Positions 8,269 to 43,648 of a stretch of 64,000 bases of DNA are shown piece after piece. Every line of letters starts with the position of its first letter. Within the stretch, counting starts at the first letter, position 1. The stretch comes from Thalassospira lucentensis. Its GTDB lineage: Bacteria > Pseudomonadota > Alphaproteobacteria > Rhodospirillales > Thalassospiraceae. The stretch lies in assembly GCF_001613805.1 (NCBI RefSeq), contig NZ_LPVY01000020.1:62001-126000 (forward strand), given 5' to 3'. The notes beneath the pieces were generated by a model. It worked only from the letters and a program-made list of their open reading frames with translations. It ran no database searches and was not told the DNA's origin. Made by a program: the position numbers and the translations under genes.

Positions 8269-8295
8269 CGTTCTTCCAATTTGTCGTTAAGCCTG

Positions 8296-22867: not shown

Positions 22868-22966
22868 TTCCGCCGGTCTTTTTATCATGCAGGATGTACC
22901 GCAGATATCTGAGGGGGCGGGCATCATCAAGGCAGCATGACAGCGAAACAAGGGGGTTAAACGGAC

Positions 22967-24064: not shown

Positions 24065-24098
24065 GTTCACAGTGACCCGCGCGATCAAAAAGACGACC

Positions 24099-24818: not shown

Positions 24819-24907
24819 ATCCCGATCCCGGGCAGACGCATTTTCGATAGGCGATGCAAGCTGTTAGGCGTTATATTGGCCCGATTGAAAATTACCGGAT
24901 AGTGCAT

Positions 24908-25444
24908 GTGACGACGCGCAAGACCAAGGTTAAACCGTCCCTTAAATCCAAGACCGATGCCCTGATCAGTGCGGGGCATGTGCTGGGCTGGCGCGAATGG
25001 ATCGGATTTCCGGATTTCGACGTACCCTTCATGAAGGCCAAGGTCGATACCGGGGCGCGGACATCGTCGCTGCATGCGTTAAATCCGCGTGTCATTGATC
25101 GCGATAATCAAAAATTCGTAAAATTCATCTTGCCGCATTACCGCGGTGACGGGCATGGTCGTATTGAGTGCATGGCACCGCTGGTTGAAACGCGCGAGAT
25201 TCGCAGTTCAAACGGCGAGGCCGAAGAACGCTATGTCATTTCGACCCATATTGCCGTCGGGCATCATAAAATCCGGGTCGAGATTTCACTGGCAAACCGT
25301 TCGTTGATGGGCTTTCCCATGCTGTTGGGGCGGACCGCGATGAAGGCAGGAAGATTTTTGGTTCAACCGTCGAAATCTTATCTGGCGGGGAAACCGGAAC
25401 AGGTTTATACGGCGCTGAAATCCGACACTGTTTCGGAACAATGA
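24908..25444 (+). CDS. RimB-like retropepsin family protein (putative ATP-dependent zinc protease)
   Basis: A protein of about 178 residues with the family core GWREWIGFPDFDVPFMKAKVDTGARTSSLHA, where DTGA is the aspartic-protease-like active site, and LGRTAMKAGRFLVQPSKSYL near the end. In Pseudomonas the related RimB works with RimK on C-terminal glutamate tails. The start is uncertain: GTG 24908 is used because a promoter-like TATATT lies inside the longer frame from ATG 24854. Its basic N-terminus (RKTKVKPSLKSK) is longer than usual. Directly upstream of rimK. Confidence 0.75.
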   Translation: MTTRKTKVKPSLKSKTDALISAGHVLGWREWIGFPDFDVPFMKAKVDTGARTSSLHALNPRVIDRDNQKFVKFILPHYRGDGHGRIECMAPLVETREIRSSNGEAEERYVISTHIAVGHHKIRVEISLANRSLMGFPMLLGRTAMKAGRFLVQPSKSYLAGKPEQVYTALKSDTVSEQ

Positions 25445-25505
25445 TCCGACGCTGTCGTTGAACTTTCGACACATTCAGTAACGCTCGACCACGGGAGTCC
25501 ATTGC

Positions 25506-26411
25506 ATGAAGATCGCAATGCTTGCGCGCAATCCTAATCTGTACTCCCACAAACGGCTGGTCGAGGCGGCCGAAAGTCGCGGGCACGAAATCGATGTGAT
25601 CAACACGCTGCGCGTCACGATGAACATCACCTCCCTTAAACCCGAAGTCTATTACGGCGGCCAGAAACTGAGCGGCTATGACGCGGTCATTCCGCGTATC
25701 GGTGTTTCGGTTACGTTTTTCGGACTGGCGGTGTTGCGCCAGTTTGAAATGATGGGCGTTTATCCGTTAAACGAATCCGTGGCGATTGGCCGGTCGCGCG
25801 ACAAGCTGCGCTCCCTGCAGATCCTGTCGCGGCGTGGTGTCGGCCTGCCGGTGACGGCCTTTGCCCATGATCCGAAAAAAACTGACGAGGTGCTTTCCAT
25901 CGTTGGCGGTGCGCCGGTGGTGATCAAGCTTCTCGAAGGTACCCAGGGCATTGGCGTGGTTCTTGGCGAAACCGAAAAATCCGCCAAATCCGTGATCGAG
26001 GCCTTCCGTGGTGCCAATGTCGATATCATGGTGCAGGAATTCATCAAGGAAGCGGGCAATACCGATATTCGCTGCTTTGTGATTGGTGGCAAGGTCGTTG
26101 CCAGCATGGAACGCAAGGGGGCCGAGGGCGATTTCCGGTCCAACATTCATCGCGGCGGTTCGGCGCGGTCCGTGCGTATTACTCCGCAGGAACGCGCAAC
26201 AGCAGTTGAAGCCGCCAAGGCGATGGGGCTAAATGTCTGTGGTGTCGATATTCTTCGCTCCAACCACGGTCCGGTGGTGATGGAAGTCAATTCATCACCC
26301 GGTCTGGAAGGCATCGAAGGCGCAACCGGCAAGGACATTGCCGGGATGATTATCGATTTCATGGAAAAGGATTACCGCCCCGGCAAGGTGCGGACCAAAG
26401 GCAAGGGATAA
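25506..26411 (+). CDS. rimK: RimK family alpha-L-glutamate ligase
   Basis: ATP-grasp ligase that adds glutamates to protein C-termini; ribosomal protein S6 is the known target in E. coli. 301 residues, the usual length. [26 protein letters not shown] at the N-terminus, [28 protein letters not shown] and [23 protein letters not shown] are all canonical. GGGAG lies eight bases before the ATG. It sits between a RimB-like protease and an AstE/AspA-like hydrolase, so reversible glutamate-tail editing is the likely theme. Confidence 0.92.
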
Positions 26412-26414
26412 ACT

Positions 26415-27503
26415 GTGAACGAGATCGGGAAAAAAGTATCCAAAGCCAAATCGGCAAAGGTCGCCAGAACCCCGGACTTCGAGATTGGCGGCAAAAAAGT
26501 CCCCGCCGGGACCCGCCAGATCGTTGATATTCCGATCTCGCTTTTATCCAATCACACGCCGGTTAATCTGACGGTCAATGTGGTGCATGGCAAACGGCCC
26601 GGTCCGGTTCTGTTCGTCAGTGGTGCCGTGCATGGCGATGAAATCGTCGGGGTGGAGGTCATCCGCCGCGTTCTGAAATCGCCCGCCCTTCGCGGCATGC
26701 ATGGTACGTTGCTGGCGGTGCCGGTCGTCAATGCGTTCGGCTTTTTGAACCATACGCGCTATCTGCCTGACCGCCGTGATCTTAACCGGTGTTTCCCCGG
26801 TCATTCGGCGGGGTCGCTTGCCGCACAGCTTGCCCATCTTTTCCTGACCGAAATTGTCGAAAAATCCGACTTCGGCATTGATCTTCATTCGGCAGCCGTG
26901 AACCGCGTCAACCTGCCCCAGATCAGGGTCAATGACGATGATCAAGACATTATGGCCTATGCCGAGGCTTTTGGTGCGCCGATCATCCTGACCAGCCCGC
27001 TTCGCGAAGGATCGCTGCGCCAGGCCGGCAAAGAGGCCAAAGTCCCGATCCTGCTCTATGAGGCGGGCGAGGGGCTCCGGTTTGATGAAATGTCGATCCG
27101 GGCCGGGGTTTCGGGGGTTTTGCGTGTGATGCGCAAGCTTGGCATGACATCGGGCCGCTCTATCCGCGACCCGAAAGTTGCCCCCTTCAAATCATCCAGC
27201 AGCCATTGGCTGCGCGCGCCTGTCGGTGGGATTTTGCGGACGTTCAAGATCGCGGGCGAATTTGTCCACGAGGGCGACGTGGTCGCCGCCGTTTCCGACC
27301 CGTTCGGTCTTCGCGATGCCGAGGTGGTGGCGAAACATGCCGGGCTGATCATCGGGCGGACCAATCTGCCCATCGTCAATCAGGGCGATGCGCTTTTCCA
27401 TGTGGCGGCGATCAAACGGTCATCGGAATTGCAGGAACGCATGGATGCCATCGAAACCCATCTGCAATCCGATCCGTTGCTTGACGAGGATGAAATCATC
27501 TGA
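26415..27503 (+). CDS. Succinylglutamate desuccinylase / aspartoacylase family hydrolase
   Basis: A zinc-dependent M14-like amidohydrolase of 362 residues. Metal and substrate motifs: GAVHGDEIVG (His and Glu), RDLNRCFPG (Arg), GIDLHSAA (second His). The C-terminal third is a separate beta-rich domain (APVGGILRTFKIAGEFVHEGDVVAAVSDPFG, lipoyl-like). GTG start 26415 is four bases after the rimK stop, with AAGGG upstream, so translation is coupled. Substrate unknown; given rimK, removal of glutamyl groups is a reasonable guess. Confidence 0.85.
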   Translation: MNEIGKKVSKAKSAKVARTPDFEIGGKKVPAGTRQIVDIPISLLSNHTPVNLTVNVVHGKRPGPVLFVSGAVHGDEIVGVEVIRRVLKSPALRGMHGTLLAVPVVNAFGFLNHTRYLPDRRDLNRCFPGHSAGSLAAQLAHLFLTEIVEKSDFGIDLHSAAVNRVNLPQIRVNDDDQDIMAYAEAFGAPIILTSPLREGSLRQAGKEAKVPILLYEAGEGLRFDEMSIRAGVSGVLRVMRKLGMTSGRSIRDPKVAPFKSSSSHWLRAPVGGILRTFKIAGEFVHEGDVVAAVSDPFGLRDAEVVAKHAGLIIGRTNLPIVNQGDALFHVAAIKRSSELQERMDAIETHLQSDPLLDEDEII

Positions 27504-27592
27504 GGCGGTGGGTTTTCCGTGATTTTTACGCATGATAGCTGCCATATCGAAGCTACTGGCGGATCACGCCCGGCAATGTTATAGCAAGGTTT

Positions 27593-28762
27593 ATGGAACC
27601 AATTACAAATACAGAAGAACTGCGCGCGTTGTGCGAAAAGCTCCGGCAGTTCGAATATGTCACGGTCGATACCGAGTTCATGCGCGATTCGACCTATTGG
27701 CCGCAGCTTTGCCTTGTGCAGTTGGCAAGCCCCGAAGCATCCGATAATGGTGCGGCGGTTGATCCGCTGGCCGAGGGCATTGACCTTGCCCCGCTGTTCG
27801 ACCTGATGCAGGACGAAAGCGTGGTCAAGGTGTTTCACGCTGCCCGTCAGGATATCGAGATTTTCGTCCATCTCAGCGGCAAGGTCCCGCACCCGGTATT
27901 CGATACCCAGGTGGCGGCGATGGTGCTTGGCTATGGCGATCAGGTCGGCTACGAGACGCTGGTCAACAAGGTGGTGCGCAAGAATATCGATAAATCGATG
28001 CGCTTTACCGACTGGTCGCACCGTCCGCTTTCGACCAAGCAGCTTAGTTATGCGCTCTCGGATGTGACTCATCTTCGCGTGATTTACGAAGCCTTCCACG
28101 AACGCCTCGAAGCCAATGGTCGGGCCTATTGGCTGGCCGAGGAAATGGAACGCCTGACCGATCCGTCGATCTATTCGATTGATCCGAAAGAAGCATGGCT
28201 TCGGCTTAAAACCCGCTCCAACAGCCCGAAATTCCTGGCGGTGGCGCGCGCGCTTGGCGAATGGCGCGAGACTGAGGCACAACGCAAGAACCTGCCGCGG
28301 AACCGCGTTCTTCGCGATGATACGCTGCTTGATATCGCCGCCCGGCAGCCATTGACCGACAAGGATCTCGACAAGACCCGCGGTGTTGGCCGCAATTTCG
28401 GCAGCAGCAAACCCGGTCAGGCGATCATCGAAGCCATCCAGGCTGCCCTTGATAGCCCGCAGGAAGACTGGCCGCAGCCAAAACTCCGCCCGGACCTTCC
28501 CGCCGGGATCGGCCCGACGGTGGAGCTGCTTAAGGTGCTACTAAAGCTCTGTTCCGAGGAAAAGGGCGTGGCCCAGCGTCTTGTGGCGTCCAGCGACGAT
28601 TTGCAGAATATTGCGGCTGATGACGATGCCGACGTCCCGGCGATGCATGGCTGGCGGCGCGAATTGTTCGGGCAATATGCCCTGCAACTCAAACACGGAC
28701 AGATCGGGCTCAAGCTCAAGAACGGCGAAGTGGTTTTTGTCGAGCTTGAAGCTCGGGACTAA
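27593..28762 (+). CDS. rnd: Ribonuclease D
   Basis: 3'-5' exoribonuclease in tRNA and small RNA maturation. 389 residues. DEDD-type exonuclease motifs are VTVDTEFMRDSTYWP, FHAARQDIEIF and LSYALSDVTHLRVIYEA. An HRDC domain follows (LGEWRETEAQRKNLPRNRVLRDDTLLDIAARQP). AAGG precedes the ATG. Ends at a bidirectional terminator. An adjacency of rnd and aspS is often seen in alphaproteobacteria, but here aspS is 13 kb away. Confidence 0.93.
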   Translation: MEPITNTEELRALCEKLRQFEYVTVDTEFMRDSTYWPQLCLVQLASPEASDNGAAVDPLAEGIDLAPLFDLMQDESVVKVFHAARQDIEIFVHLSGKVPHPVFDTQVAAMVLGYGDQVGYETLVNKVVRKNIDKSMRFTDWSHRPLSTKQLSYALSDVTHLRVIYEAFHERLEANGRAYWLAEEMERLTDPSIYSIDPKEAWLRLKTRSNSPKFLAVARALGEWRETEAQRKNLPRNRVLRDDTLLDIAARQPLTDKDLDKTRGVGRNFGSSKPGQAIIEAIQAALDSPQEDWPQPKLRPDLPAGIGPTVELLKVLLKLCSEEKGVAQRLVASSDDLQNIAADDDADVPAMHGWRRELFGQYALQLKHGQIGLKLKNGEVVFVELEARD

Positions 28763-28792
28763 ATCCCGCGATCCAATCGAAGACATGAAAAA

Positions 28793-28816
28793 ACGGGCCA
28801 GCTTTGGCCCGTTTTT
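28793..28816. terminator. Bidirectional terminator between rnd and the NmrA-like gene
   Basis: ACGGGCC (28793-28799) pairs with GGCCCGT (28806-28812), with T/A runs on both sides. It serves both convergent genes. Confidence 0.88.
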
Positions 28817-28846
28817 CGTTTTTGTCCGTTTCTTGACTGCGGCGGA

Positions 28847-29707
28847 TTATTTCAGCGCCGCTTTCAGGAAGTCGGCCGTACTTTGCGGTGCGCGGCCGAC
28901 AACCTTGGCGAAGTCATCGCTGGTTTGTTCATAATCGCCATTACGCGTGCCGACATACATGCCGCTGAGCGCCTCGATCAGATGGTCGGGCAGGCCAAAG
29001 CTTGCCAGAATGCCGGTATGGACTTCGGGCGGCAGATCGACATAACGGATATCCTTGCCGGTTGCGTCGGCAATGATGGCGGCGATATCGGCAAAGCCGA
29101 TCGGCGTGCCCGAAAGGTCATAGGTCTGATTGACATGATCGGACGGATTGGCAAGCACGGTGGCGGCAGCTTCGGCAAGGTCATTACGCGGAATATAGCT
29201 GACCTTGCCATTGCCGGCAGGGGCGCCAAAATCACCGGTTTCAAGCGCATGCGGAACGCCCGCCATCAGAAGATCGGTATAGAAGCTGTTGCGCAGCAAG
29301 GTGAAGGACAGGCCGCTTGCCTTGATATAGTTTTCCGTGTCGGCATGGATGGCGGCATAGGTGAACGGGCTTTCGGGGCGCGCATCGATGAAGCTGGTAT
29401 AGACCAGATGTCTGACACCGGCGGCCTTGGCGGCATCAACCGCGGTCCGGTGCTGTTTGATGCGGGTTTCAACATCGGTTTCACCCGAAATGATCAGCGC
29501 GATATCAATGCCCTTGAACGCATTGGTCATCAGGGCAAGATCATCAAAATCACCATGGCGGACATCAATGCCTTCGGCGGCCATTTCCTGTGCCTTGGCA
29601 ACATTGCGGACACTTGCGGCAATCTGATCGGCGGAAACGCGGTTCAGCAGATGTCTGACGACAAGGCTTCCGAGCTGGCCGGTGGCGCCGGTAACGAGGA
29701 TTTTCAT
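28847..29707 (-). CDS. NmrA-like NAD(P)-binding protein (quinone oxidoreductase 2 type)
   Basis: An atypical short-chain dehydrogenase of about 286 residues. The Rossmann motif is MKILVTGATGQLGSLVVRHLL; then SVRN and HGDFDD follow. HLVYTSFIDARPESPF and SGTPIGFADIAAIIADATGKDIRYVDLP resemble YtfG/NmrA-like proteins, which reduce quinones or sense NAD(P). ATG 29707 fits the domain start and has GGAG upstream; the longer frame is not needed. Divergent to a LysR regulator, probably its target. Confidence 0.86.
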   Translation of the reverse strand: MKILVTGATGQLGSLVVRHLLNRVSADQIAASVRNVAKAQEMAAEGIDVRHGDFDDLALMTNAFKGIDIALIISGETDVETRIKQHRTAVDAAKAAGVRHLVYTSFIDARPESPFTYAAIHADTENYIKASGLSFTLLRNSFYTDLLMAGVPHALETGDFGAPAGNGKVSYIPRNDLAEAAATVLANPSDHVNQTYDLSGTPIGFADIAAIIADATGKDIRYVDLPPEVHTGILASFGLPDHLIEALSGMYVGTRNGDYEQTSDDFAKVVGRAPQSTADFLKAALK

Positions 29708-29780
29708 GGTTTCATTTCTCCGGTAATCGGTGGTGGGCATTGGCCCGTCAATGAAATGAAACTGCACCTGATTTCCCATA

Positions 29781-29795
29781 TGATCAATTCGATCA
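29781..29795. promoter_or_regulatory. Candidate LysR box between NmrA-like and LysR genes
   Basis: TGATC (29781-29785), five bases, GATCA (29791-29795): a dyad with the T-N11-A spacing of LysR sites. It lies 18 bases before the LysR start. Confidence 0.55.
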
Positions 29796-29813
29796 AGGTG
29801 ATAGTATTCATGC

Positions 29814-30725
29814 ATGAACATCGATGAATTGGATCTTGATTATCGTCTGCTGCGGCTTTTCCTGACGATCTATGACGAAGGATCGGTAACCGCCGCTGCC
29901 AATCGCCTTGGCGTCGGGCAACCCACCGTCAGCCACGGGCTCGACCGGTTGCGCCAGATTGTCGGTGATCCGCTTTTTGTCCGGTCGGGGCGGGGGATTA
30001 CGCCGACCGCCCATGCCGATGAAATGGCCGGGCGGGTGCGCATCCTGTTGCAGGATTTACGCAACCTTGCCCGCGTTGATGCCTTTGATCCGAATGATCC
30101 GGCGCAATCAGCCCGCTTTGTGATCGGCACCAACGATTACGAGGTGGCGGTGATCATGCCCGAACTGTTTCGCATCATCCGCGGCTATGCCGCCGATATC
30201 CGGCTTCGGATTTTGCCGATCCATGGCGATACCAACGTGATCGACCGGCTGCGCAGCGGCCAGCTTGATCTGGCGATTGGCCTGCATATGACTGAAAATG
30301 TTGGCGATGTCGCACAGCAAACCCTGTTTCGTGAACATATGGCCTGCTTTTACGATGCCGATTGCCATGACGTGCCACCCGATACGCTGGATCGGTACTG
30401 CAACGTGCCCCATGCGCGTGTGATCATCGGCAATAACGATCATTCGGCGGTGGACGATGCATTGCACGCCATCGGGCGCAAACGCCGCACGGTTTTGCAG
30501 GCATCAACCTTCGCCAGCATCGCAAGCCTCATCCGCGCAACGGACGTGATCGCATCGCTACCATCGCGGCTTGAACGCAATGTTATGGCGGGATTTGGCA
30601 GTTGCGCCTTCCCGCTTGATTTCCCCGAATACAGCTTTGCCCAGTCCTGGCATGTGCGCAACGCCGCCAGCGCCCCGCATAAATGGCTGCGGGGCGAGAT
30701 TTTCAAGATTTCACGATGGCTTTAG
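29814..30725 (+). CDS. LysR-family transcriptional regulator, 3' end altered by an insertion
   Basis: 303 residues. N-terminal helix-turn-helix is LDYRLLRLFLTIYDEGSVTAAANRLGVGQPTVSHGLDRLRQIVGDPLFVRSGRGITPT. The C-terminal ligand-binding domain is of the NodD/SyrM-like type. It is divergent to an NmrA-like gene. The last stretch (30651-30705) is repeated exactly at 35734-35788, where it is followed by a different ending that overlaps the stop of the DUF1835 gene. The present C-terminus (KISRWL) is therefore probably a replacement supplied by the inserted segment; the original read RVTRKLV. Confidence 0.9.
   Translation: MNIDELDLDYRLLRLFLTIYDEGSVTAAANRLGVGQPTVSHGLDRLRQIVGDPLFVRSGRGITPTAHADEMAGRVRILLQDLRNLARVDAFDPNDPAQSARFVIGTNDYEVAVIMPELFRIIRGYAADIRLRILPIHGDTNVIDRLRSGQLDLAIGLHMTENVGDVAQQTLFREHMACFYDADCHDVPPDTLDRYCNVPHARVIIGNNDHSAVDDALHAIGRKRRTVLQASTFASIASLIRATDVIASLPSRLERNVMAGFGSCAFPLDFPEYSFAQSWHVRNAASAPHKWLRGEIFKISRWL
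30651..30705. repeat. Left copy of the 55-bp direct repeat flanking the sugar island
   Basis: Identical over 55 bases to 35734-35788. It lies within the last codons of the LysR gene. Confidence 0.95.
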
Positions 30726-30744
30726 AGGCATGCTCCGGACTCGC

Positions 30745-31641
30745 CTATTGCGCGGCCCACCAGTTGATGCAGTCGGACAACGCTGTATCTATGTCGTAAT
30801 CGGCTGTGAAGCCGATCATTTGTGATAGGCGATTGGTATTGGCAACAAGATAGGGTGGATCATCGGCGCGATCCGGAAAGCCGCCGGGATTAAGTGCGCC
30901 ACGCCCGATTTTTTCGTGCAGGCGCCGGGCGATTTCAAGCAAGCTGTGACCGTTGCCGCTCGCGATATTGATAGCGCCCATCATGTCACCTTGTATCAGG
31001 GTTGCAAAGGCGCGACCGGCATCTTTGACATGTATGAAATCGCGAACTTGCTTGCCGGAACTCATATTAGCTGTTTCACCGGCCAAAAGCTTTGTCGCGA
31101 TTGAGGGAATAAAACGCGCAGGGCTTTCTCGTGGGCCAAGTAATAAAAATAGTCTCCCCCATGCGATTGAGGCTCCAGACTTGATCAGATCATCACAGTG
31201 TTTGAAAAGCCGGAGTTTTTGCTGGCCGTACAAAGTCGCCGGATGGCAGGCGGCATCTTCAGAAAGTTTCGTGCCTGCCGGGATGTTTTGCCAGTCATAT
31301 TCCGCACAACTTCCAGACACGACGACACGCGATCCACCCGATTGTAAAAAAAGCTTGATCAGGTTGCTGCTCGCTTCGTACCAATCATGATTGTCTGGGG
31401 CATTCCAAAAATGCCCATGTTTTGTTTGCCACGCCAGATGCAGCAGGCCGTCGGGTTTTTCGGTGTTGACCAGTGTCTTTTGAAAGTCGACATCAAGAAG
31501 ATCACCGGATCTATGTGAGACACTGATAATACCGGTGGGACTACGACCACAGGTCACAACGTTGATCCCGGCATCAATGAGTGATTTAACAGCGTGAACA
31601 CCGATCAGTCCGGTTGCTCCGGTCACCAGAACTTTCATCAA
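30745..31641 (-). CDS. NAD-dependent epimerase/dehydratase-type sugar reductase
   Basis: An extended short-chain dehydrogenase, 298 residues. Nucleotide site is KVLVTGATGLIGVHAVKSL. The active-site Y-x-x-x-K lies in YGQQKLRLF. HVKDAGRAFATLIQG and YDIDTALSDCINWW are typical of the family end. As the last gene of the cluster it most likely reduces the 4-keto group of the CDP-4-keto sugar. It overlaps the start side of the epimerase gene by four bases, so it is translationally coupled. Exact stereochemistry unknown. Confidence 0.8.
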   Translation of the reverse strand: MMKVLVTGATGLIGVHAVKSLIDAGINVVTCGRSPTGIISVSHRSGDLLDVDFQKTLVNTEKPDGLLHLAWQTKHGHFWNAPDNHDWYEASSNLIKLFLQSGGSRVVVSGSCAEYDWQNIPAGTKLSEDAACHPATLYGQQKLRLFKHCDDLIKSGASIAWGRLFLLLGPRESPARFIPSIATKLLAGETANMSSGKQVRDFIHVKDAGRAFATLIQGDMMGAINIASGNGHSLLEIARRLHEKIGRGALNPGGFPDRADDPPYLVANTNRLSQMIGFTADYDIDTALSDCINWWAAQ

Positions 31642-32171
31642 TCTGCCTTGAAATCGGGATAGGATGCATCACGGTCATTGATGAGCGCTGGCGCAAATGG
31701 CCATTTGATGCCAAAAGCCGGATCGTTCCATCGTACTCCATCGGCCAGATCAGTGACAAAAGGTGCACCCATCAAGTATAGCAGCTCCGCATCGTCGGTC
31801 AGGGTCAGAAAGCCATGCGCGCAGCCAGCGGGAATCAAAAAGGCATGCCGATTTTGCGCGGATAATTCGGTAGCTGTCCACTGACAAAAAGCGGGTGAAT
31901 CTGGCCGCAGGTCAACCACAACGTCGTAAACGGCACCTTTGATGCACCGGACGATTTTTGGGTCGCCAACCGGGTTTTGTTGATAATGCATGCCACGCAA
32001 TGTGCCAAGCTTATGATTGAACGACATATTTGCCTGAACGACTTCAAACGGATAACCTGCGTCGGCCAATTCATCACGGCAAAATGCACGGGCGAAGAAG
32101 CCCCGATCATCTTCATGCGGGTTCAGTTCTATCCGTTTTACGTCTGGTAAATCTGTCGCGATCAGGTTCAT
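31638..32171 (-). CDS. dTDP-4-dehydrorhamnose 3,5-epimerase family protein (RfbC-like)
   Basis: A cupin-fold sugar epimerase of about 177 residues. Family hallmarks are DDRGFFARAFCRDE, LRGMHYQQNP (catalytic His), VDLRPDSP, FLIPAGCAHGFLTL and YLMGAPF. ATG 32171 overlaps the stop of the methyltransferase gene as ATGA. In this CDP-sugar context it is expected to epimerise C5, or C3/C5, of the keto-sugar intermediate rather than make dTDP-rhamnose, because no other rml genes are present. Confidence 0.85.
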   Translation of the reverse strand: MNLIATDLPDVKRIELNPHEDDRGFFARAFCRDELADAGYPFEVVQANMSFNHKLGTLRGMHYQQNPVGDPKIVRCIKGAVYDVVVDLRPDSPAFCQWTATELSAQNRHAFLIPAGCAHGFLTLTDDAELLYLMGAPFVTDLADGVRWNDPAFGIKWPFAPALINDRDASYPDFKAD

Positions 32172-33400
32172 GGCAGGATTTGCACCTTGGGCACGGCAAC
32201 AACAAATTGGCCGTCCCAATCGCGAACATAGGAAACTGCGGCCATGATTTCATCCTTAAGGTTCCATGGCAGGATGATGACATAATCAGGCTGTTCGGTT
32301 CTCAGCGCTTCAGGTGACCTGACCGGAATGCGGCTGCCGGGCAGCAGGGTGTTTTGCTTATGCGGATTGGCATCGACAACAAAGGCAATCTGATCGCTCA
32401 TAATACCACAATAATTCAGAATCGTATTACCCTTGGCTGCGGCTCCATAGGCTGCAACTTTCTTGCCGTTGGCATTAGCCTGATTGATAAAGGCGATCAG
32501 GTCGTCGCGAATTTTTATAACTTTTTGTTCGAACCCGTCGTAGCAGTCAAGTGTGGCAATTCCCGCTGCATCTTCCTTGGCCCGAACGGCCTTAAGGCCG
32601 ACGGTTTCAGGGCGTGTGCCGGATGTTTTCTGAGCCCAGACGCGTAGGCTGCCGCCATGGGTTGGCAGTTCTTCGACATCAAATACCTTAAGGCCGTTTT
32701 GTTCAAAGCAACGCTCAACTGCATAAAGCGACAGATAGGAAAAATGTTCGTGATAGATGGTGTCGAACTGGGTTTTTTCCAAAAGATTCAAAAGATGCGG
32801 GAATTCAAAGGTCGAAACCCCGCTGTCCTTAAGAACCACCGCAAAACCCGAGACGAAGTCATTGATATCGGGCACATGGGCCAAAACGTTATTTGCAGTT
32901 GTCAGGTCGGCATGGCCATATTGCACGATAATTTTTTCAGCAGTTTCCTTGCCAAAGAAGGCAACAAGGCTACGTACGCCTCTTTTCTCGGCTTCGACGG
33001 CAACATTTGCGGCCGGTTCAACACCAAGCACCGGAACGCCAGCGCCAACAAAATGTTGCAGGAGATAGCCATCGTTCGACGCGACTTCGACAACCAGTGA
33101 CTGCCCACCGAGCGACAGGCGGTCTTTGGCCTGCTGGCAGTATTCGCGCGCATGTTCTACCCAGCTTGTCGAATAGCTCGAGAAATAAGCGTAATCACTG
33201 AAAATATCAGATGGGGGGACGACGTCATCCACCTGAACCAAAAAGCAATCGCTGCATACACGCGCATGTAGCGGATAGCGGTTGTCCGCCGTATTTTTGC
33301 GATCTAGGGTGACATATGAATTTGCCAATGGACTATCGCCCAGATCAACAAGCGTATGATTCAGTTCTGCGCCACAGGCGCGGCATTTCGGAGCTGTCAT
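32168..33400 (-). CDS. Sugar C-methyltransferase (TylC3/NovU-type, SAM-dependent)
   Basis: A 410-residue three-part protein. An N-terminal zinc-binding domain has paired CxxC motifs (CRACG and CSDCF). The central SAM-binding domain is LVVEVASNDGYLLQHFVGAGVPVLGVEPAANVA. The C-terminal domain is KVAAYGAAAKGNTILNYCG with VDANPHKQNTLLPGSRIPV. This is the architecture of enzymes that add a branching methyl to C3 or C5 of 4-keto-6-deoxy sugars. Lying between rfbG and an epimerase, it probably methylates CDP-4-keto-6-deoxyglucose. It overlaps the rfbG stop. Confidence 0.86.
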   Translation of the reverse strand: MTAPKCRACGAELNHTLVDLGDSPLANSYVTLDRKNTADNRYPLHARVCSDCFLVQVDDVVPPSDIFSDYAYFSSYSTSWVEHAREYCQQAKDRLSLGGQSLVVEVASNDGYLLQHFVGAGVPVLGVEPAANVAVEAEKRGVRSLVAFFGKETAEKIIVQYGHADLTTANNVLAHVPDINDFVSGFAVVLKDSGVSTFEFPHLLNLLEKTQFDTIYHEHFSYLSLYAVERCFEQNGLKVFDVEELPTHGGSLRVWAQKTSGTRPETVGLKAVRAKEDAAGIATLDCYDGFEQKVIKIRDDLIAFINQANANGKKVAAYGAAAKGNTILNYCGIMSDQIAFVVDANPHKQNTLLPGSRIPVRSPEALRTEQPDYVIILPWNLKDEIMAAVSYVRDWDGQFVVAVPKVQILP

Positions 33401-34485
33401 TTCCTATCCATCAAGTCTTCGTAGGACGCGACTTGCGCCGCTGTGATTTTGGTCATGGTTTGCCCGGCAAGCTGTGCCTTGTGCCACTGCACAATCCATT
33501 CAATGCACGATGCAAGGTCCAGTCGGGGTTGCCAGCCCAGCGCCGATTTCGCCAGGCTGGAATCAAGGGCCAGGGTACGGGCTTCTTTTTTTCCATCACC
33601 TTTGTCCTCGGTCACGCGGCCACTGTTGGATCCCCAATGGGCCAGCATCAGATCAACTACTTCGGCAACGGTGTTTGAGCTGTCCGGGCCGAAATTAAGC
33701 GTGGTTTCTTCAACACGGCGCTCGACAGCGGCCTGAAGAAACATCAGATATCCTGCAACTGGTTCAAGCACATGTTGCCACGGCCGAGTTGCATCCGGGC
33801 TTCTCAGAATTACTGGCTGGTTGGTGGCAATGGCGGTGATGATGTCGGTCATCAGGCGGTCTTCGGACCAGTCTCCACCGCCAATCACATTGCCCGCCCG
33901 CGCTGTAACAACGGGTATGTTCTTCTCCCGGAAGAAGCTTTGGCCAAAGCTACGGGTGACGATTTCCTGTGCACCCTTGGATGCACTGTAGGGATCACGT
34001 CCGCCAAGGGCATCACCTTCGCGGAAAATCACGTCGCCATGAGCCTGATCATAGCTGTCATTGTCATAGGCCTTGTCGCTGGTGACGATCAGAGCACCCA
34101 GAAGGTTTTCCGAGGCGCGTAGAGCGTCCAGCAAATGCGCCGTGCCCATGACATTTGTCGCCATGGTTTCAACCGGTTCGCGGTAGCCGCGTCGCACAAG
34201 AGGTTGGGCTGCCATATGCAGAACAAGTTGAGGGTCGATAGCTTTTACGGCATTAGCCACGGCATCGCGATCGCGAAGATCAGCAATATATTCCGAGGCA
34301 TAGGGAATATTTAACAAGCCGTACAAGCCGGGTTCGGTTTCAGGTGCCAGCGAGAAACCATGTACTTCAGCGCCCATATGTTTCAACCAAGCGCCAGCCC
34401 AACCGCCCTTGAAACCTGTGTGGCCGGTAAGCAAAACACGTTTCCCATACCAGAACCGATGAAGGTTTTTACTTTGGCTGGTCAT
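33397..34485 (-). CDS. rfbG: CDP-glucose 4,6-dehydratase
   Basis: Makes CDP-4-keto-6-deoxyglucose from CDP-glucose with bound NAD. About 362 residues, like Salmonella RfbG. Characteristic features: FWYGKRVLLTGHTGFKGGWAGAWLKHMGAEVHGFSL (the GHTGFKG Rossmann variant), HMAAQPLVRRGY, VTSDKAYDN, GRDPYSASKGAQE with the catalytic Y-x-x-x-K, and ARAGNVIGGGDW. ATG 34485 begins the domain and lies four bases after the rfbF stop. Confidence 0.93.
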   Translation of the reverse strand: MTSQSKNLHRFWYGKRVLLTGHTGFKGGWAGAWLKHMGAEVHGFSLAPETEPGLYGLLNIPYASEYIADLRDRDAVANAVKAIDPQLVLHMAAQPLVRRGYREPVETMATNVMGTAHLLDALRASENLLGALIVTSDKAYDNDSYDQAHGDVIFREGDALGGRDPYSASKGAQEIVTRSFGQSFFREKNIPVVTARAGNVIGGGDWSEDRLMTDIITAIATNQPVILRSPDATRPWQHVLEPVAGYLMFLQAAVERRVEETTLNFGPDSSNTVAEVVDLMLAHWGSNSGRVTEDKGDGKKEARTLALDSSLAKSALGWQPRLDLASCIEWIVQWHKAQLAGQTMTKITAAQVASYEDLMDRK

Positions 34486-34489
34486 AAGG

Positions 34490-35260
34490 TTACCAGACCT
34501 TCCAAGGGGCCTTGCCGTTCGCCCAAAGGGTTTCGAGAAGTTGCTTCTCACGTAATGTATCCATAGGTTGCCAGAAACCATCGTGACGCCATGCAGAAAG
34601 TTGATCTGCCTCGGTCAGGCGGTGCAACGGATCTGTTTCCCATATTGTTTGATCGTTTTCAATCTCACTAATTACTGATTTCTCGCAAACAAAAAAGCCC
34701 GCATTGATACGCGCGTGGTCGCCAAGAGGCTTTTCCTGAAACGCGCTGACACGATTTCCGTCAAGCACAGTTGCGCCAAAACGACCGGGTGGGGCTACGA
34801 CGGTCATTGTTGCTTTGCGGCCTTGAGCTTTGTGAAATGCGATAGAAGCCGTGATATCAACATCGCCAAGTCCGTCCCCATAGGTCAGGCAAAAGGGCTG
34901 CTCTTCATCTAAGTAATTGGCGATGCGCTTAATGCGTCCGCCAGTCATGCTGTCCTGACCGGTGTCAACAAGTGTAACTTTCCAAGGCTCGGCATTGGCA
35001 TTGTGATATTCAAGCTGATTGGTGGCCATATCGATTGTAACGTCGGCATGGTGCAAGAAGTAATTCGCAAAATATTCCTTTATTATATAGCCCTTGTAGC
35101 CCAAGCAAATTACAAAATCGTTCACCCCATGGGCTGAATATATCTTCATTAAATGCCAAATTATTGGCATTCCTCCAATCTCTACCATAGGCTTTGGCTT
35201 CGATGTTGTTTCTTCGCTCAAGCGGCTGCCGTAGCCTCCTGCAAGTATGACTGCCTTCAT
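34490..35260 (-). CDS. rfbF: Glucose-1-phosphate cytidylyltransferase
   Basis: Activates glucose-1-phosphate with CTP to CDP-glucose, the first committed step of the cluster. 256 residues, the usual RfbF length. MKAVILAGGYGSRLSEETTSKPKPMVEIGGMPIIWHLMKIYSAHGVNDFVICLGYKG and GDGLGDVDI are canonical, and INAGFFVCEKSV is typical of cytidylyl rather than thymidylyl enzymes. First gene of the island operon, with a long AT-rich upstream region holding its promoter. Confidence 0.94.
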   Translation of the reverse strand: MKAVILAGGYGSRLSEETTSKPKPMVEIGGMPIIWHLMKIYSAHGVNDFVICLGYKGYIIKEYFANYFLHHADVTIDMATNQLEYHNANAEPWKVTLVDTGQDSMTGGRIKRIANYLDEEQPFCLTYGDGLGDVDITASIAFHKAQGRKATMTVVAPPGRFGATVLDGNRVSAFQEKPLGDHARINAGFFVCEKSVISEIENDQTIWETDPLHRLTEADQLSAWRHDGFWQPMDTLREKQLLETLWANGKAPWKVW

Positions 35261-35733
35261 TGACTTGGTTATCCATTTTTAGATGAATTTATGAGTATCT
35301 ATCGATACTCGGACGTGAATGTATTGACTTGCGAATAGGAAACATCACAGCAAGATTTTTACTTTTCCACCCGAACTATACTGGACTTTGGATTTTTAAT
35401 TAGGGTCTAATCAATGCTTTTCCCGCTAAATTTTAATTCATGAGCCAATGCAAATTTGTTGGGGGGGCATACCTCATTGTATCCGCGTGCGAAGTATATG
35501 TGTGACATGCGAAATGTTCCAATATTTTTCCCCACAGTGAGTCCTGCGCGACTGAGCCAAGTCTTTATTTGGATGCATAATCGAAAGGTAGACAGTGAGG
35601 GTTCGGCGCCAAGCAGCACGACAGCGCAACCCACTCGCGTTGTTTTGTGCAAAATACAATTATATCCCTAGCGGATGTCAGCCAGATATCTTTCACTTGG
35701 GGTTGCCCGAAATACAGTTCCGGGGAGTCCTAA
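35261..35733 (-). other. AT-rich upstream region of the sugar operon
   Basis: No gene seen; short frames have no family features. Composition is far more AT-rich than the chromosome, and it presumably holds the rfbF promoter. In the last 50 bases before 35734 the sequence resembles the LysR coding sequence upstream of the left repeat (for example CCCGAAATACAG against CCCGAATACAG), but with an inserted base and a stop. Confidence 0.6.
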
Positions 35734-35788
35734 CATGTGCGCAACGCCGCCAGCGCCCCGCATAAATGGCTGCGGGGCGAGATTTTCA
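35734..35788. repeat. Right copy of the 55-bp direct repeat
   Basis: Exact copy of 30651-30705, 5,083 bases further on. Confidence 0.95.
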
Positions 35789-35811
35789 GGGTGACGCGAA
35801 AGCTGGTTTAA
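35734..35811 (+). pseudogene. Displaced 3' fragment of the LysR gene
   Basis: 25 codons in the LysR frame (HVRNAASAPHKWLRG...) followed by RVTRKLV and TAA at 35809-35811. The first 55 bases equal 30651-30705. A TAA immediately precedes the fragment, so it is not expressed as a protein. Its stop overlaps the DUF1835 stop, as expected for the original end of the LysR gene. Confidence 0.8.
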
Positions 35812-37052
35812 GGTCCTTTCGCACCGCTAATCCGGATGCCGCCAACCCATCGTTCCCCGGTATAAAACGTCATGAAATTCCGGGTGCCGGAAAGGACTTC
35901 GTTGCCGGTCTCGCAAAGCGACAGGGTGCGGTCCGGCCAGGGCGTCTGGCTCGGGTCTTCGGGATAGGTGAAAAGCGGCATTTTCGCCCGGCCCATATCA
36001 ACAAGAACTTCCCAGAACATCAAATCGCCCAGAAACGGCAGCGGGTCGTAGGTCCGCATCAGGTGGCCAAAGATTTTGCCCGCCGTGATCGGGCCATGAT
36101 CCCGGATGATTTGCAGCGTCAGTTTCTGCGTCAGGCCAAGACCGCTTTCGGGATCGGGCAATTCACGCAAATGGCGATCAAGGGCCGCGATCATGCAGGG
36201 GATTGGCGATTGTCCGTTATCAATGATGGCGCGCAGCGCATCGGGGTTTGAGGCACGGATCGCGCGCCAGACCGCTTGACCGAATGTCAGCATGTCATCC
36301 GAAACCGGCGCACGGGCATTGTCCCAGCACCAGATCAGCAGTTCGGGCGAAAGCTGACCAAGGCCGATGAAACGCTCAACCCCCGGCACCCGATCCACGC
36401 AAATCAGATCAAGCCGCGTTCGCGGGCGGAGCGTTGCGATGAAATCAAGCAGGAAGGCCAGTATAAGCTGATCGTAGCTGTCATGTTCAAACCACAGCAC
36501 GACATGATCATAATCGCCCAATGTCGCCAGCCCGGCATACTCGCGTTGCAGACGGGAAAGCGCATCGGGAAAATCAATGCGATAGGACGATGCGATAAAA
36601 CGTGAGCGCGTTTCGATAAAGTCGGGCAGGGGCACATCGGGCACCGGTCCCTGACAGAACGGATCGGAAAATTCCATGAACGGGCCAGCAAAACCGGCCA
36701 GTTCAAGGCCATGCCTGATGTCCGAGCCACAGCGCAGATGCAGGGTTTGCGGGGTATCAAGCGTTGGCAGATGCCCCGATGCAATCTGGCGCTGATGTTC
36801 GGTAATCCGGTCGATATGGGATTTCAGTTTCGGCCAGCTGGCAAAGCCGTTTTCGCGCGCGATGACAAGCTGGCTATCGGCCAGTTGCAGATCATCAATG
36901 CTTTTGCCGGGCAGGTGGGCCGCAATCCGGGTTTGGGCATCTGCCTGCTGATTACGGGCGGATTTCAGAAGTTCCTTGGCGCGCTTGCGCTGCTGCTCAA
37001 GGTTAAGGCGGCCGTCAAATATTCCGGATTTCGATGTGCGCGAAGCAGACAT
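35808..37052 (-). CDS. DUF1835 domain protein
   Basis: A 414-residue cytoplasmic protein. The N-terminal 80 residues (LEQQRKRAKELLKSAR, then LVIARENGFASWPKLKSHID) are the helical module often found before ankyrin repeats. From about residue 103 a DUF1835-type domain follows (LHLRCGSDIRHGLELAGFAGPFMEFSDPFCQGPVP) with VLWFEHDSYDQLILAFLL. Function unknown for the family. It was probably the convergent neighbour of the LysR gene before the island came in. Confidence 0.82.
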   Translation of the reverse strand: MSASRTSKSGIFDGRLNLEQQRKRAKELLKSARNQQADAQTRIAAHLPGKSIDDLQLADSQLVIARENGFASWPKLKSHIDRITEHQRQIASGHLPTLDTPQTLHLRCGSDIRHGLELAGFAGPFMEFSDPFCQGPVPDVPLPDFIETRSRFIASSYRIDFPDALSRLQREYAGLATLGDYDHVVLWFEHDSYDQLILAFLLDFIATLRPRTRLDLICVDRVPGVERFIGLGQLSPELLIWCWDNARAPVSDDMLTFGQAVWRAIRASNPDALRAIIDNGQSPIPCMIAALDRHLRELPDPESGLGLTQKLTLQIIRDHGPITAGKIFGHLMRTYDPLPFLGDLMFWEVLVDMGRAKMPLFTYPEDPSQTPWPDRTLSLCETGNEVLSGTRNFMTFYTGERWVGGIRISGAKGP

Positions 37053-37188
37053 ACGATTCCCCTGTGCTTAAGCCTGTGTCCGCCAGACAGGCAAGGAAAC
37101 CGTGTGGTTCATATGTCATCTAAGACCGGGCGCAGCCCTTTCCGCGGACGGGGTGCTTCGGGAAGCAGCCCCAGCATAGCATGCCCGG

Positions 37189-38685
37189 TCAGGGTTGGGG
37201 AAGCTGATCGACGATGACGACCTGGCTTTCGCAATCCATCAGTTTGGCAAGTTTTGATAAACGCTGTTCGACGACTTCACCATTCAGGGCCGCGAAATCC
37301 CTGTGCATCTGAAGCATGAGGACCTTGTCCTCAAGCACAAGCGCCGTACCGGGCAGGATGCCCTCGACCCCGCCTGAAAGCGTATGGCCAAGGCGGATGG
37401 CGTGACCGTAAAGGCGACCGATATTGCGCGTATCGTCGTCAAGCAACCGGTCACTGGATTCGTCACCCTTGAAATTACCGGTATAGCGCGAGCCGATGGT
37501 ATAGGCGAGGAACACCCGATCATGATGGTTCAGATCAAGATAGGGGTGATGCAGGATGCGGTTATAGCTCTGGATCGCCCGGTAATCGGGATGTTCGTTC
37601 CAGCCGACATCGCCGATGATGCAGGCAGCAAGGCGCAACCGGCCTAGATTTCCCGGTTGTTCGCGGAAGATCGGTGCCGACCAGCGATAAAGTTCCTCGC
37701 CATGCTGATGGAAACGTTCGCCGTCTTCGGCAAAGCTGAGACAGGCATCAAGCAACGGATCGCGTTCGCGCAATTCGTCGGGCAGGGCTTCATACATCCA
37801 GCCTTCGCGCAGGCCATGGCTGGAAAAGACGACTTCCTTGGCCTGCATGCGTTCAAGCAGCATGTTCATGACAAGGCCCGCATGCGGCAGGCTATCGATA
37901 CGACGTTTGGAAACACCGCCAACCTTGTCAAGCGACACACGGCTTTGCTGGGATATGATATGCGTCAGTTCGGCGATTTCGGCACGTGGCATGGTCAGAT
38001 TATGCACGACCGAAATCGGATAATTTTCCTGCGCGATATAAAGCTTGGCAATCGAACGCCACGAACCGCCAACCGCAATCAGCGGTTTGCCCGCACCTTC
38101 ATGCAGCCAGTCGACCGTATCAAGATGGGTTTTGACCTCTGCCTCAAGCCGGGCACGGTCTGCGCCGAATACCGCATGCAGGCGCATGGCGCCCAAGGGT
38201 ACGCTGACGCTTTTTTTGATCTCGCCTTCCTCAAGCAACACCAGTTCAAGCGACCCGCCACCGATATCCCCCATGATGCCGGTGGCACGACGATCACCGG
38301 AAATAATGCCAAAGGCCGAAAGACGGGCTTCTTCAAGCCCGTCAATCACCTTGACGGTCAATCCGGTTTCCGCATGCACGCGATCACAAAATGCCTGCCC
38401 GTCGCTGGCCGCACGGACGGCAGCGGTGGCAAGGATATCGACACGTGTGACCTTCATCGCACGCAACAGCCGGGCGAACCGCCGCAGGGCAGCGGTTGCC
38501 ATTTCAACGCCTTCGGGGTTCAGCCGTCCGGTATTTTCCGGATCACGGCCAAGGCCGCACATCACCTTTTCGTTGAAAATCGGGGCCGGTGCGCGTGTCA
38601 TGCCATCAAACACAACAAGACGCACCGAGTTCGAGCCAACATCAATGATGGCAATACGGTTGGAAACCCTTTGGTCAGTCAGCAT
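37189..38685 (-). CDS. ppx: Exopolyphosphatase / guanosine pentaphosphatase (Ppx/GppA)
   Basis: Degrades inorganic polyphosphate from the ends, or pppGpp. 498 residues. N-terminal ASKHA fold: IAIIDVGSNSVRLVVFDG; central GDIGGGSLELVLLEEG; catalytic Glu expected in the ATAAVR region. The C-terminal HD-like helical region is of the longer Ppx type. It is 33 bases downstream of ppk, so the polymer-making and polymer-breaking enzymes are co-transcribed. Confidence 0.9.
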   Translation of the reverse strand: MLTDQRVSNRIAIIDVGSNSVRLVVFDGMTRAPAPIFNEKVMCGLGRDPENTGRLNPEGVEMATAALRRFARLLRAMKVTRVDILATAAVRAASDGQAFCDRVHAETGLTVKVIDGLEEARLSAFGIISGDRRATGIMGDIGGGSLELVLLEEGEIKKSVSVPLGAMRLHAVFGADRARLEAEVKTHLDTVDWLHEGAGKPLIAVGGSWRSIAKLYIAQENYPISVVHNLTMPRAEIAELTHIISQQSRVSLDKVGGVSKRRIDSLPHAGLVMNMLLERMQAKEVVFSSHGLREGWMYEALPDELRERDPLLDACLSFAEDGERFHQHGEELYRWSAPIFREQPGNLGRLRLAACIIGDVGWNEHPDYRAIQSYNRILHHPYLDLNHHDRVFLAYTIGSRYTGNFKGDESSDRLLDDDTRNIGRLYGHAIRLGHTLSGGVEGILPGTALVLEDKVLMLQMHRDFAALNGEVVEQRLSKLAKLMDCESQVVIVDQLPQP

Positions 38686-38718
38686 GCGGTTGGTTGAACC
38701 TGTCTAGGTATGCACTCG

Positions 38719-40866
38719 TTAATCATCAAGCTGCAGCACGGGAACATTCGGATCTTCCTCGCTAAGCGCGCTGCCACGGCCTGAAAGTGACGGGTTGGTC
38801 ATGAAATACTGATGAGAGGAGAATGAATTTTCGTCTGCTTCGCACCGCTCATATGACCCGTCGGGCTGCAGGTACCAAGCCTGCGCCGTATCTTTCAGAT
38901 TTGCAATCATGATCTGTTCGACAATCTGGCGTTGGCAAGTGGGGTTTTCTACCGGAACCAGCGTTTCGACACGACGGTTAAGGTTGCGCGGCATCCAGTC
39001 GGCGGATGAAATAAACGCCTTGGCCTTGCGCGATGGCAGTTTCGCGCCGTTTGCAAAGACGACAATGCGCGAATGTTCAAGGAACCGACCGACGATGGAT
39101 TTAACGCGAATATTTTCTGACAAGCCCGGTACACCCGGCCGCAAACAGCAAATGCCGCGCACCACCAGTTCGATATGCACCCCGGCCTGGCTGGCACGAT
39201 AAAGCGCATCAATCACCACCGGATCGACAAGGCTGTTCATCTTGGCCCAGATGCCCGACGGTTTGCTCGCCTGACAATTTTCGATCTCGTGATCGATATG
39301 GGCAAGCAGGGTCGGGCGCAATGTATGCGGTGCAATGGCGATTTTCTCAAGCGAGCGCGGGGTGGCATAACCAGTCATGAAATTAAAGATACTGGCCGCG
39401 TCACGCCCCAATGCCGGATCGCACGAGAAGAACGAAATATCGGTATAGAATTTCGCGGTGATCGGGTGATAGTTGCCGGTCCCGAAATGCACATAGGTCC
39501 GAAGCCCGTGGCTTTCGCGCCGAACCACCAGCGACACCTTGGCATGCGTTTTCCAGTCAAGGAAACCATAAACCACCTGACAACCGGCACGCTCAAGATC
39601 CGCCGCCCAGCGCAGGTTGGCTTCCTCGTCAAAACGTGCCTTAAGCTCCACCATGGCCGTAACCGATTTGCCGGCTTCGGCGGCGGCAATCAGGGCCTTC
39701 ACAATCGGGCTGTTTTCCGATGTGCGATAAAGGGTCTGTTTGATCGTGACAACATCGGGATCACGTGCAGCCTGCAACAGGAACTGCACAACGACGTCGA
39801 AATCTTCGAACGGGTGATGAACGACGATGTCCTTTTTGCCAATCGCGGCAAAGCAATCACCGCCAAAGTCGCGCACCCGTTCGGGATAACGCGCGCCGTA
39901 TGGCGGGAACAGCAGATCATGATGCAGATCGGAATCGATCAGTTGTTTGACGTCAACAACACCCAGAAGGCCATCAACCTTGACGACTTCCTCAGGTGCG
40001 ACCGAAAGTTCATCGACCACGAAATCCAGAAGGTCTTCGGGCATCTTGGCATTGACTTTAAGCCGGATGATGCTGCCGCGGCGACGGCGTTTCAGCGCGG
40101 TCTTGAAAACGCGCACCAGATCTTCGGCTTCTTCTTCAATTTCAACGTCCGAGTCACGGATGACACGAAACAGGCCATGTTCGATCATGTCGAAACCGGG
40201 GAACAGCTTATCCAGATAAAGCACAATCGCCTGTTCCAGCGGAAGGTAGCGTTCGGTGCGGCCCGGCAGGCGCAGGAAACGGCCGATCTTCGGCGGCACC
40301 GGGATCAGGCCGCGCATGTTGTGACCATCCGCCGGGTCAAAAAGCTGCATGACAATCGCAAAGCCAAGGTTCGGAATGAACGGGAAGGGATGCGATGGAT
40401 CAATGGCAAGCGGTGTCAGCGTCGGGAAGATTTCGCGCATGAAATAGCCATCAAGCCATTTGCGGTCCGTCTGCGTCAGATCTTCCGGCCCGATCACGGA
40501 AATGCCGTGCTTTTCCATCTCGGTGCTAAGCTGCTGCCAGATGCGCTGCTGATCCTGCATCAACTGGTTGGCGTCGTATGTAATCGCACGAAGCTGCTCG
40601 GACGGGCTCATGCCATCCTGGCTGACCTTGGTCATGCCCGCGCGCAACTGCCCGACCAGCCCGGCAACGCGAACCATGTAAAATTCATCAAGGTTGCTGG
40701 CGGAAATCGACAGGAACCGCACACGTTCAAGCAACGGATGACGCTGATTTTGGGCCTCTTCAAGGACGCGACCGTTAAAGGCCAGCCACGAAAGTTCGCG
40801 GTTTATAAAGCGCTTGTCCGAATCAAGTGTGATTGCGCTTGATTGAATAACGGCGGCGTGGGTCAC
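38719..40866 (-). CDS. ppk: Polyphosphate kinase 1
   Basis: Makes polyphosphate from ATP, reversibly; membrane-associated. About 715 residues. It opens with [36 protein letters not shown]. The autophosphorylated His lies in the [11 protein letters not shown] region, and [16 protein letters not shown] is the conserved end block. GTG 40866 is chosen because AGGAGG precedes it by six bases; the frame extends to 40962 without a site. First gene of ppk-ppx, divergent to sixA. Confidence 0.95.
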
Positions 40867-41060
40867 GCTATGCCTCCTGCGAAAGTGGGTTTGTGTCCTT
40901 GAAATAAGGCGACAGGTCCCGGTTGCGATTGGAGTATAGGATAACTGCTTGTCGGGGTGCAATTTTCTTAAATTTTTAAGTCAGTTTTTATGATGGCTTC
41001 ACAGCGCCCTATGTGACATGCAAAAGTCTGCCTTTCGCGAGATTACCGGATACCGATTTT

Positions 41061-43631: not shown

Positions 43632-43648
43632 TTACTGTCTTTGACGCT

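Follow-up and report, generated by a model that had tools for sequence, protein, structure and literature searches.

An operon for a putative CDP-linked sugar between exact copies of a LysR gene end in Thalassospira lucentensis

Results

Five sugar genes lie between two copies of a LysR gene end

We analyzed a 64,000-nucleotide stretch of Thalassospira lucentensis DNA (assembly GCF_001613805.1, contig NZ_LPVY01000020.1, positions 62,001 to 126,000 of the forward strand; hereafter the window), focusing on a block of five sugar genes that separates a LysR-family regulator gene from a convergent gene of the DUF1835 family. In the set of genomes used for comparison, this locus lies on contig C19 of the window strain (G000). 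A repeat scan revealed that all exact direct repeats of at least 22 bp in the window are accounted for by a single 55-bp pair flanking the block. The copies are identical and offset by 5,083 bases, just as a first-pass annotation, made by a model from the sequence, had proposed, and the regions around them share 82% ungapped similarity over 102 bp. At the left copy, LysR terminates as ...EIFKISRWL*, while the right copy continues as ...EIFRVTRKLV*. The stop codon of this alternative ending (35809 to 35811) and the convergent DUF1835 gene, whose end lies at 35808, overlap by 4 bp, again in agreement with the first-pass annotation. The genes and repeats of the locus are as follows.

29814 to 30725, plus strand: LysR-family regulator gene (Pfam HTH_1 and LysR_substrate); host sequence to about 30705, the last 20 bp (the end of KISRWL*) being donor-type
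30651 to 30705, plus strand: left copy of the 55-bp repeat, LysR codons HVRNAASAPHKWLRGEIF
30745 to 31641, minus strand: NAD-dependent sugar epimerase/ketoreductase (PF01370, 1.1e-32)
31638 to 32174, minus strand: RmlC-type NDP-sugar 3,5-epimerase (PF00908, 4e-58; TIGR01221 above cut-off)
32168 to 33400, minus strand: sugar C-methyltransferase (PF08421, PF13489 and PF08484; no NCBIfam match)
33397 to 34485, minus strand: CDP-glucose 4,6-dehydratase, rfbG/ddhB type (TIGR02622, 410 bits against a cut-off of 278)
34490 to 35260, minus strand: glucose-1-phosphate cytidylyltransferase, rfbF/ddhA type (TIGR02623, 431 bits against a cut-off of 300)
35734 to 35788, plus strand: right copy of the 55-bp repeat, identical to the single copy in G060, a second T. 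lucentensis genome
35808 to 37052, minus strand: DUF1835 gene, the right neighbor of the empty site (PF08874, 1.7e-10; 97% identical in G060)

All five genes between the repeats are open and lie on the minus strand. Their enzyme families fit the needs of a pathway to a CDP-linked, C-methylated 6-deoxyhexose, and the five enzymes would thus yield a CDP-activated sugar of this kind for a surface glycan.

The block is AT-richer than its surroundings, as the first-pass annotation had stated: G+C content is 51.6% in the operon, 50.7% in the whole insert and 42.9% in the last 475 bp of the insert, versus 58.1% in LysR, 57.6% in DUF1835 and 56.2% in the window. However, this property is not peculiar to the insert. 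The G+C content of the operon falls 6.4 points below that of LysR in the window and 0.2 to 5.0 points below it in all nine other genomes of the genus that carry a homologous operon here. We thus rejected low G+C content as an argument for foreign origin, the same trend, if weaker, being seen at the other occupied loci.

A conspecific genome carries the exact empty site

A 10,001-bp stretch of one G060 contig is 100% identical to plasmid NZ_CP136683.1 of T. lucentensis, and a contig of G009 includes a stretch identical to NZ_CP004389.1 of T. xiamenensis M-5. The conspecific genome G060 holds a single copy of the repeat (55 of 55 bases), followed directly by the RVTRKLV tail and DUF1835, with a 4-bp overlap of the stops. 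Compared with the window, G060 is 98.0% identical over 20814 to 30705 without gaps and 97.6% identical over 35703 to 43907, with nothing in between, and zero host bases were lost at the insertion site. The LysR gene of the window is 98% identical to that of G060 over bases 1 to 892 of 912 only.

The three genomes of the nearest species, G025, G009 (T. xiamenensis M-5) and G015, are likewise empty, with the same 4-bp stop overlap between LysR and DUF1835. They keep 52 to 54 of the 55 repeat bases, and their LysR genes are 93–94% identical to that of the window. The LysR tail is RVTRKLV in G025 and G009, as in G060, and KVTRKLV in G015. The predicted empty site, a LysR gene ending in RVTRKLV and convergent with DUF1835, thus occurs exactly in G060, and the three nearest species have it with minor differences in sequence. 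A further genome, G024, is also empty; here LysR ends in KISRRL, and the stops overlap likewise.

The junctions hold a swapped LysR tail and a decayed LysR segment

The two ends of the insert could be read against G060 almost to the base. On the left, LysR tracks G060 at the ordinary density of single-nucleotide polymorphisms (SNPs) up to 30705, the last difference lying at 30626. On the right, the 55 bp and the sequence downstream are host sequence, and the first difference from G060 lies at 35818. Four features make up the junctions.

30706 to 30725, plus strand: swapped LysR tail from a donor LysR, matching G024 at 19 of 20 bp and the conspecific G060 at 9 of 20
35413 to 35659, minus strand: probable remnant of the glycosyltransferase 2 gene located at this spot in the other occupied loci (tblastn 26.2 bits versus a maximum of 21.6 in 100 shuffles)
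35660 to 35733, plus strand: decayed LysR 3′ segment at the right end of the island, in frame (PKYSSGES*H versus PEYSFAQSWH)
35789 to 35811, plus strand: host LysR tail RVTRKLV*, with the stop overlapping DUF1835

The new ending that the left copy gives to LysR had been recognized in the first-pass annotation, and its resemblance to G024 now identifies it as a donor-type tail. The fainter resemblance to LysR preceding the right copy, for which a donor-borne or decayed LysR segment had been suggested, is real: in register with the LysR gene of the window, 20 of the 31 bases directly upstream and 35 of the 74 upstream agree. The null means are 7.7 and 18.7, and neither value was reached in 20,000 shuffles. 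This segment is closer to the window's own clade (20–21 of 31) than to G024 (16 of 31). The glycosyltransferase remnant next to it consists of two pieces in different frames, in the same order and on the same strand as in relatives. The right end of the island thus looks like a truncated, decayed glycosyltransferase gene fused to a decayed LysR end, with the glycosyltransferase part being the less certain of the two.

These junctions bear on homology-facilitated illegitimate recombination or template switching, by which homology at LysR would have joined the left side and a short-homology rejoining further upstream in LysR the right side, duplicating the stretch in between. Such a mechanism has been described in naturally competent bacteria (PMC2884548), and the similarity just upstream of the right core is indeed patchy (six of the last 11 bases). 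Nevertheless, the in-register similarity to LysR continues upstream of the right core for no fewer than 31 bases and probably for 74. A decayed LysR segment explains this better than microhomology does, and we find this route very unlikely.

Homologous operons occupy the same site across the genus

The 28 other Thalassospira genomes divide into 19 that are empty, with LysR adjoining DUF1835, and nine with a homologous operon beside LysR (G001, G002, G005, G011, G013, G014, G017, G018 and G021). The gap between LysR and DUF1835, measured in 18 of the 19 empty genomes, ranges from −4 to 65 bp; the empty state of the nineteenth, G022, was deduced from match positions, with its LysR gene divided between contigs. 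In G014, the DUF1835 side of the occupied locus is on a separate contig.

The window locus carries an insertion scar, the 55-bp repeat, unlike the nine other occupied loci, where no LysR repeat was detected either by comparing each locus with itself or by a genome-wide search with the LysR end (for G014, the self-comparison extends only to the contig end, and the genome-wide search gave one LysR-end match). Across the 29 genomes of the genus, we detected no second copy of the LysR end better than E = 0.007 beyond the window's right copy, in a search that used the window's own sequence as the query and that a strongly decayed copy could escape. Similarly, the right-hand end of the insert gave, among the matches listed for these 29 genomes, none better than E = 0.078 except itself.

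Other cargo between the same repeats, which the first-pass annotation had suggested looking for, did not come to light: the repeats were not detected at any other occupied locus, and the cargo there comprises versions of the same operon. The dehydratase gene is retained in six of the nine loci and missing in G005, G017 and G018, where the pathway must thus differ or borrow the enzyme from elsewhere; these three loci have an additional plus-strand gene at the right end, which in G017, the one tested, belongs to the SDR family. A glycosyltransferase gene is present in all nine. An open frame adjoins LysR in six of the loci (G001, G002, G011, G013, G014 and G018), and in G002, the one tested, it encodes a hexapeptide acyltransferase, judged from its sequence to be probably a sugar O-acetyltransferase.

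The proposal of integration at a gene 3′ end with reconstitution therefore stands in part. The LysR end is duplicated and LysR has received a new ending, but the notion of a foreign island at a chance gene end is not supported, given the homologous operon at this site in nine of 28 genomes.

We made several further observations in these regions. The G002 acyltransferase (L068:1931-2533) matches streptogramin and chloramphenicol acetyltransferase models far under their cut-offs. The contig end beside the G014 operon (L071, around 8150 to 8461) holds a candidate insertion-sequence transposase, by appearance. The DUF1835 match of G002 (L054) has two internal TGA stops in the matched region, and in nine genomes DUF1835 matches begin only at residue 72–95, suggesting that the N-terminal part is variable in the genus. 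Finally, the window contains a perfect 32-bp palindrome at 43650 to 43681 (arm AAAAACGGCCCGGAAA) with a T run at its end, which appears terminator-like in both directions and is almost unchanged in G060 and G009.

The operon diverges in step with its flanks

To follow the history of the operon, we compared protein distances across the 10 occupied genomes, a set that includes the near-copies G001 and G014. The distances of four operon proteins correlated strongly with those of LysR plus DUF1835 (r = 0.90, with none of 5,000 permutations as high). A methyltransferase tree recovered the three groups seen in the flank tree, with only three of its 12 inner branches starred and a different order within one group. 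By recorded name, the nearest kin of the window's methyltransferase, among the best 120 of 7,978 matches, are from T. xiamenensis (95%), unnamed sources (92%) and T. alkalitolerans (90%), followed by other Thalassospira and unnamed entries at 75–78% and then by entries at 70% or less. Since the type strain of T. xiamenensis is empty and a methyltransferase is recorded under the name of this species, T. xiamenensis seems to be polymorphic too.

On a tree of the flanks that covers 28 genomes and omits G022, the occupied or empty state required seven changes, versus a mean of 8.4 after shuffling, with about 100 of 500 shuffles as low. The scattered presence of the operon fits frequent loss or exchange, which the flank tree does not tell apart. 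Taken together, the sequence comparisons suggest that the operon is an old resident of the LysR-DUF1835 site, often lost, and regained or exchanged in the window lineage, with the LysR duplication as the scar.

These results raise the question of when and where the scar was formed. The repeat-flanked allele could be older than its presence in this strain, having arrived whole when ordinary homologous recombination in the long flanks brought it in from another occupied strain, conspecific or of a near species, after an insertion that took place earlier and elsewhere. Genomic islands have been described as spreading through populations by flank recombination (PMC2884548). The divergence of the nearest methyltransferases (95% and 90% identity, for entries named T. 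xiamenensis and T. alkalitolerans) is about that of LysR within the clade (93% to G009 and 89% to G024), which indicates that operon copies known from protein records persist in the clade. Differences from G060 are also denser on the right of the insert, with 95 SNPs in the first 2,500 bp versus 194 in 9,892 bp on the left. However, the density is not raised on the left, the methyltransferase kin come from protein records that do not place the operon in those strains, and the two 55-bp copies match each other and G060, so the insertion is probably little older than present species diversity. We consider such an arrival unlikely.

Alternatively, the window strain may have kept an ancestral repeat-flanked allele, while recombination between the repeats removed the operon from its relatives. 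A precise deletion of this kind, by way of the 55-bp repeats, would leave exactly the empty sites that we observed, the divergence of the operon tracks that of the flanks, and the type strain of T. xiamenensis is empty while proteins exist under that species name. Yet this history requires two to four losses (in G060, G025, G009 and G015, whose branching is not settled) instead of one gain. Moreover, the non-coding right copy should have drifted over that time, whereas it is identical at 55 of 55 bases, and the empty site of G024 has a LysR tail of its own as well as overlapping stops, which makes the empty state look old in this clade. Retention of an ancestral allele hence appears quite improbable.

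No integrase is found among the operon genes

Scans with Pfam and NCBIfam models detected no integrase or recombinase among the five genes of the insert, whose short open reading frames fell outside the Pfam scan; for these genes, the absence of an integrase described in the first-pass annotation is borne out. Genome-wide, the window strain has two Phage_integrase matches, on contigs C11 and C22, in frames of 313 and 335 aa, sizes that suggest XerC and XerD. Both have counterparts of equal length in the empty genome G060, which has a third match. We found no link between the Phage_integrase or resolvase-family matches of the window strain and the LysR-DUF1835 site. We rejected a canonical integrative island on two grounds: the five genes include no integrase, and nine other genomes have a homologous operon in this position without a detected LysR repeat.

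Site-specific integration could still have occurred with the LysR 3′ end as the attachment site and a recombinase that acted in trans or has since been lost. The sharp 55-bp identity with divergence on either side and the reconstituted gene 3′ end are what it would leave, and the core contains an inverted repeat with perfect 8-bp arms set 10 bp apart; when 55-bp stretches were sampled throughout the window, 1.5% of them held a repeat of this kind. On the other hand, the inverted repeat is perfect in only six of 28 genomes, and its pairing exceeds expectation slightly (0.665 versus 0.625 over 25 distinct sequences, with 24 of 2,000 permutations as high), for which reasons a conserved hairpin as an attachment core was rejected. 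Given also that no integrase is among the five genes, that both Phage_integrase matches are shared with the empty G060 and that the repeats were not detected at other occupied loci, we hold site-specific integration to be quite unlikely.

Other vehicles found no support either. The insert had no match in 50,697 phage records. Partial matches occurred in 84 plasmid records, none covering 80% of the insert, and those bearing gene names, among the best 15 of the 84, were other CDP-sugar genes. The gene transfer agent marker GTA_TIM (PF13547), which among 14 controls was matched in Caulobacter vibrioides, had no match in either genome searched, the window strain and G060, and we accordingly rejected gene transfer agent cargo.

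An empty site was probably re-entered through the LysR end

We are confident, short of certainty, of two points: an empty site was entered, and the operon is a resident of the genus. The right junction is an intact allele of the empty type, which indicates that an empty LysR-DUF1835 site was re-entered. We infer that the change was a gain in this strain, from a donor, by way of a circular copy and through the recombination system of the host instead of a site-specific one.

We take the LysR-DUF1835 interval to be the home of a native Thalassospira CDP-sugar operon. Many lineages lack the operon, and in them LysR and DUF1835 are convergent and, in the window clade, overlapping. An operon copy that bore a donor LysR tail at the left and a piece of decayed LysR at the right would then have entered such an empty site by recombination within the 3′ end of LysR. 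This could most simply be achieved in one step, by a Campbell-type crossover that host recombination performs between an excised circle and the chromosomal LysR end. The circle would carry, in order, the decayed LysR, the core, the KISRWL tail, the operon and the decayed glycosyltransferase. The crossover would duplicate the 55 bp, place the donor tail on the left LysR and leave the host tail at the right. One such event accounts for both junctions: no host base lost, the core duplicated, the donor tail on the left and the donor fragment on the right. We hold this circular single-crossover step tentatively, at slightly under an even chance.

Several points weigh against this scenario. Neither the circular form nor a donor genome was observed, and the repeat-flanked unit was found only in the window strain. 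A donor resembling G024 would differ from the host at six of the 55 core bases, yet the copies are identical; the donor core was thus host-like, or the core was homogenized. The denser SNPs on the right leave room for a donor tract reaching into DUF1835. The occupied or empty state was not clustered beyond chance on the flank tree, and counts of changes cannot separate gain from loss. A recombinase could have acted in trans, and the window strain has one resolvase-family match, on contig C18.

A more general version of the re-entry scenario takes the LysR 3′ end as a homing address. The operon would circulate in Thalassospira as a non-replicating circle labeled with a piece of LysR, leaving and re-entering only this locus by host recombination and swapping the C-terminus of the regulator each time. 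We offer this as a speculation that is rather unlikely to hold in full.

Discussion

Genomic islands of the integrase type at gene 3′ ends are bounded by direct repeats, reconstitute the gene 3′ end and leave an empty site in relatives. The insert described here resembles them in its duplicated gene 3′ end, its reconstituted gene and the one-copy empty site of G060. It differs in that its five genes include no integrase and that homologous cargo lies at the same site in other species, where the repeat was not detected.

The cargo, too, has a counterpart. The genes SMb21416-21418 of Sinorhizobium meliloti are located on a megaplasmid. They encode ddhA, ddhB and an NDP-hexose 3-C-methyltransferase and are listed among the differences from S. 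medicae (PMC4053727). The window operon thus shares with them three enzyme types that are accessory between close species.

A closer structural parallel is the H47 island of Escherichia coli, which is small, repeat-flanked and devoid of a recombinase of its own, and whose empty sites in other strains are hybrids of its two repeats (PMC3191183; PMC5426353). Its repeats of 146 and 148 bp share 77% identity, with a longest perfect run of 20 bp, and the island spans about 13 kb. Excision and integration of H47 were detected by PCR, also without RecA, with a PCR artefact named by the authors as a remaining doubt. The LysR-DUF1835 insert is similar in being repeat-flanked, in having no recombinase among its five genes and in its natural empty sites. 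In contrast to H47, it has a perfect 55-bp core at the 3′ end of a regulator gene and cargo homologous to that native to the site in the genus.

Variable or dimorphic loci have also been ascribed to homology-assisted illegitimate recombination (PMC2884548). Like the present locus, those described there are variable segments at a fixed site that lie beyond site-specific recombination or transposition, some of them repeat-flanked and some with empty alleles. The segments emphasized there span 20–500 bp with repeats mostly below 30 bp, as opposed to 5 kb and 55 bp here. Our literature searches on Thalassospira genomic islands, O-antigen and O-specific polysaccharide or lipopolysaccharide gave nothing on the LysR-DUF1835 locus among the matches listed, and we make no claim of its absence from print.

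The locus belongs with the known small, repeat-flanked islands that lack a recombinase. To this kind it adds a scar of 55 perfectly matching base pairs where a regulator gene ends, together with cargo for which the site is native ground in other members of the genus. Our findings also call for caution: the genus should be surveyed before an AT-rich block that lies between repeats at the 3′ end of a gene is labeled a foreign integrative island. For Thalassospira, the locus offers a clear case of a native operon for a surface sugar that comes and goes at a fixed place with no integrase among its genes, and the empty site is documented in a conspecific. Since both junctions can be read, the donor LysR tail included, the mechanism is open to study by PCR and strain sequencing.

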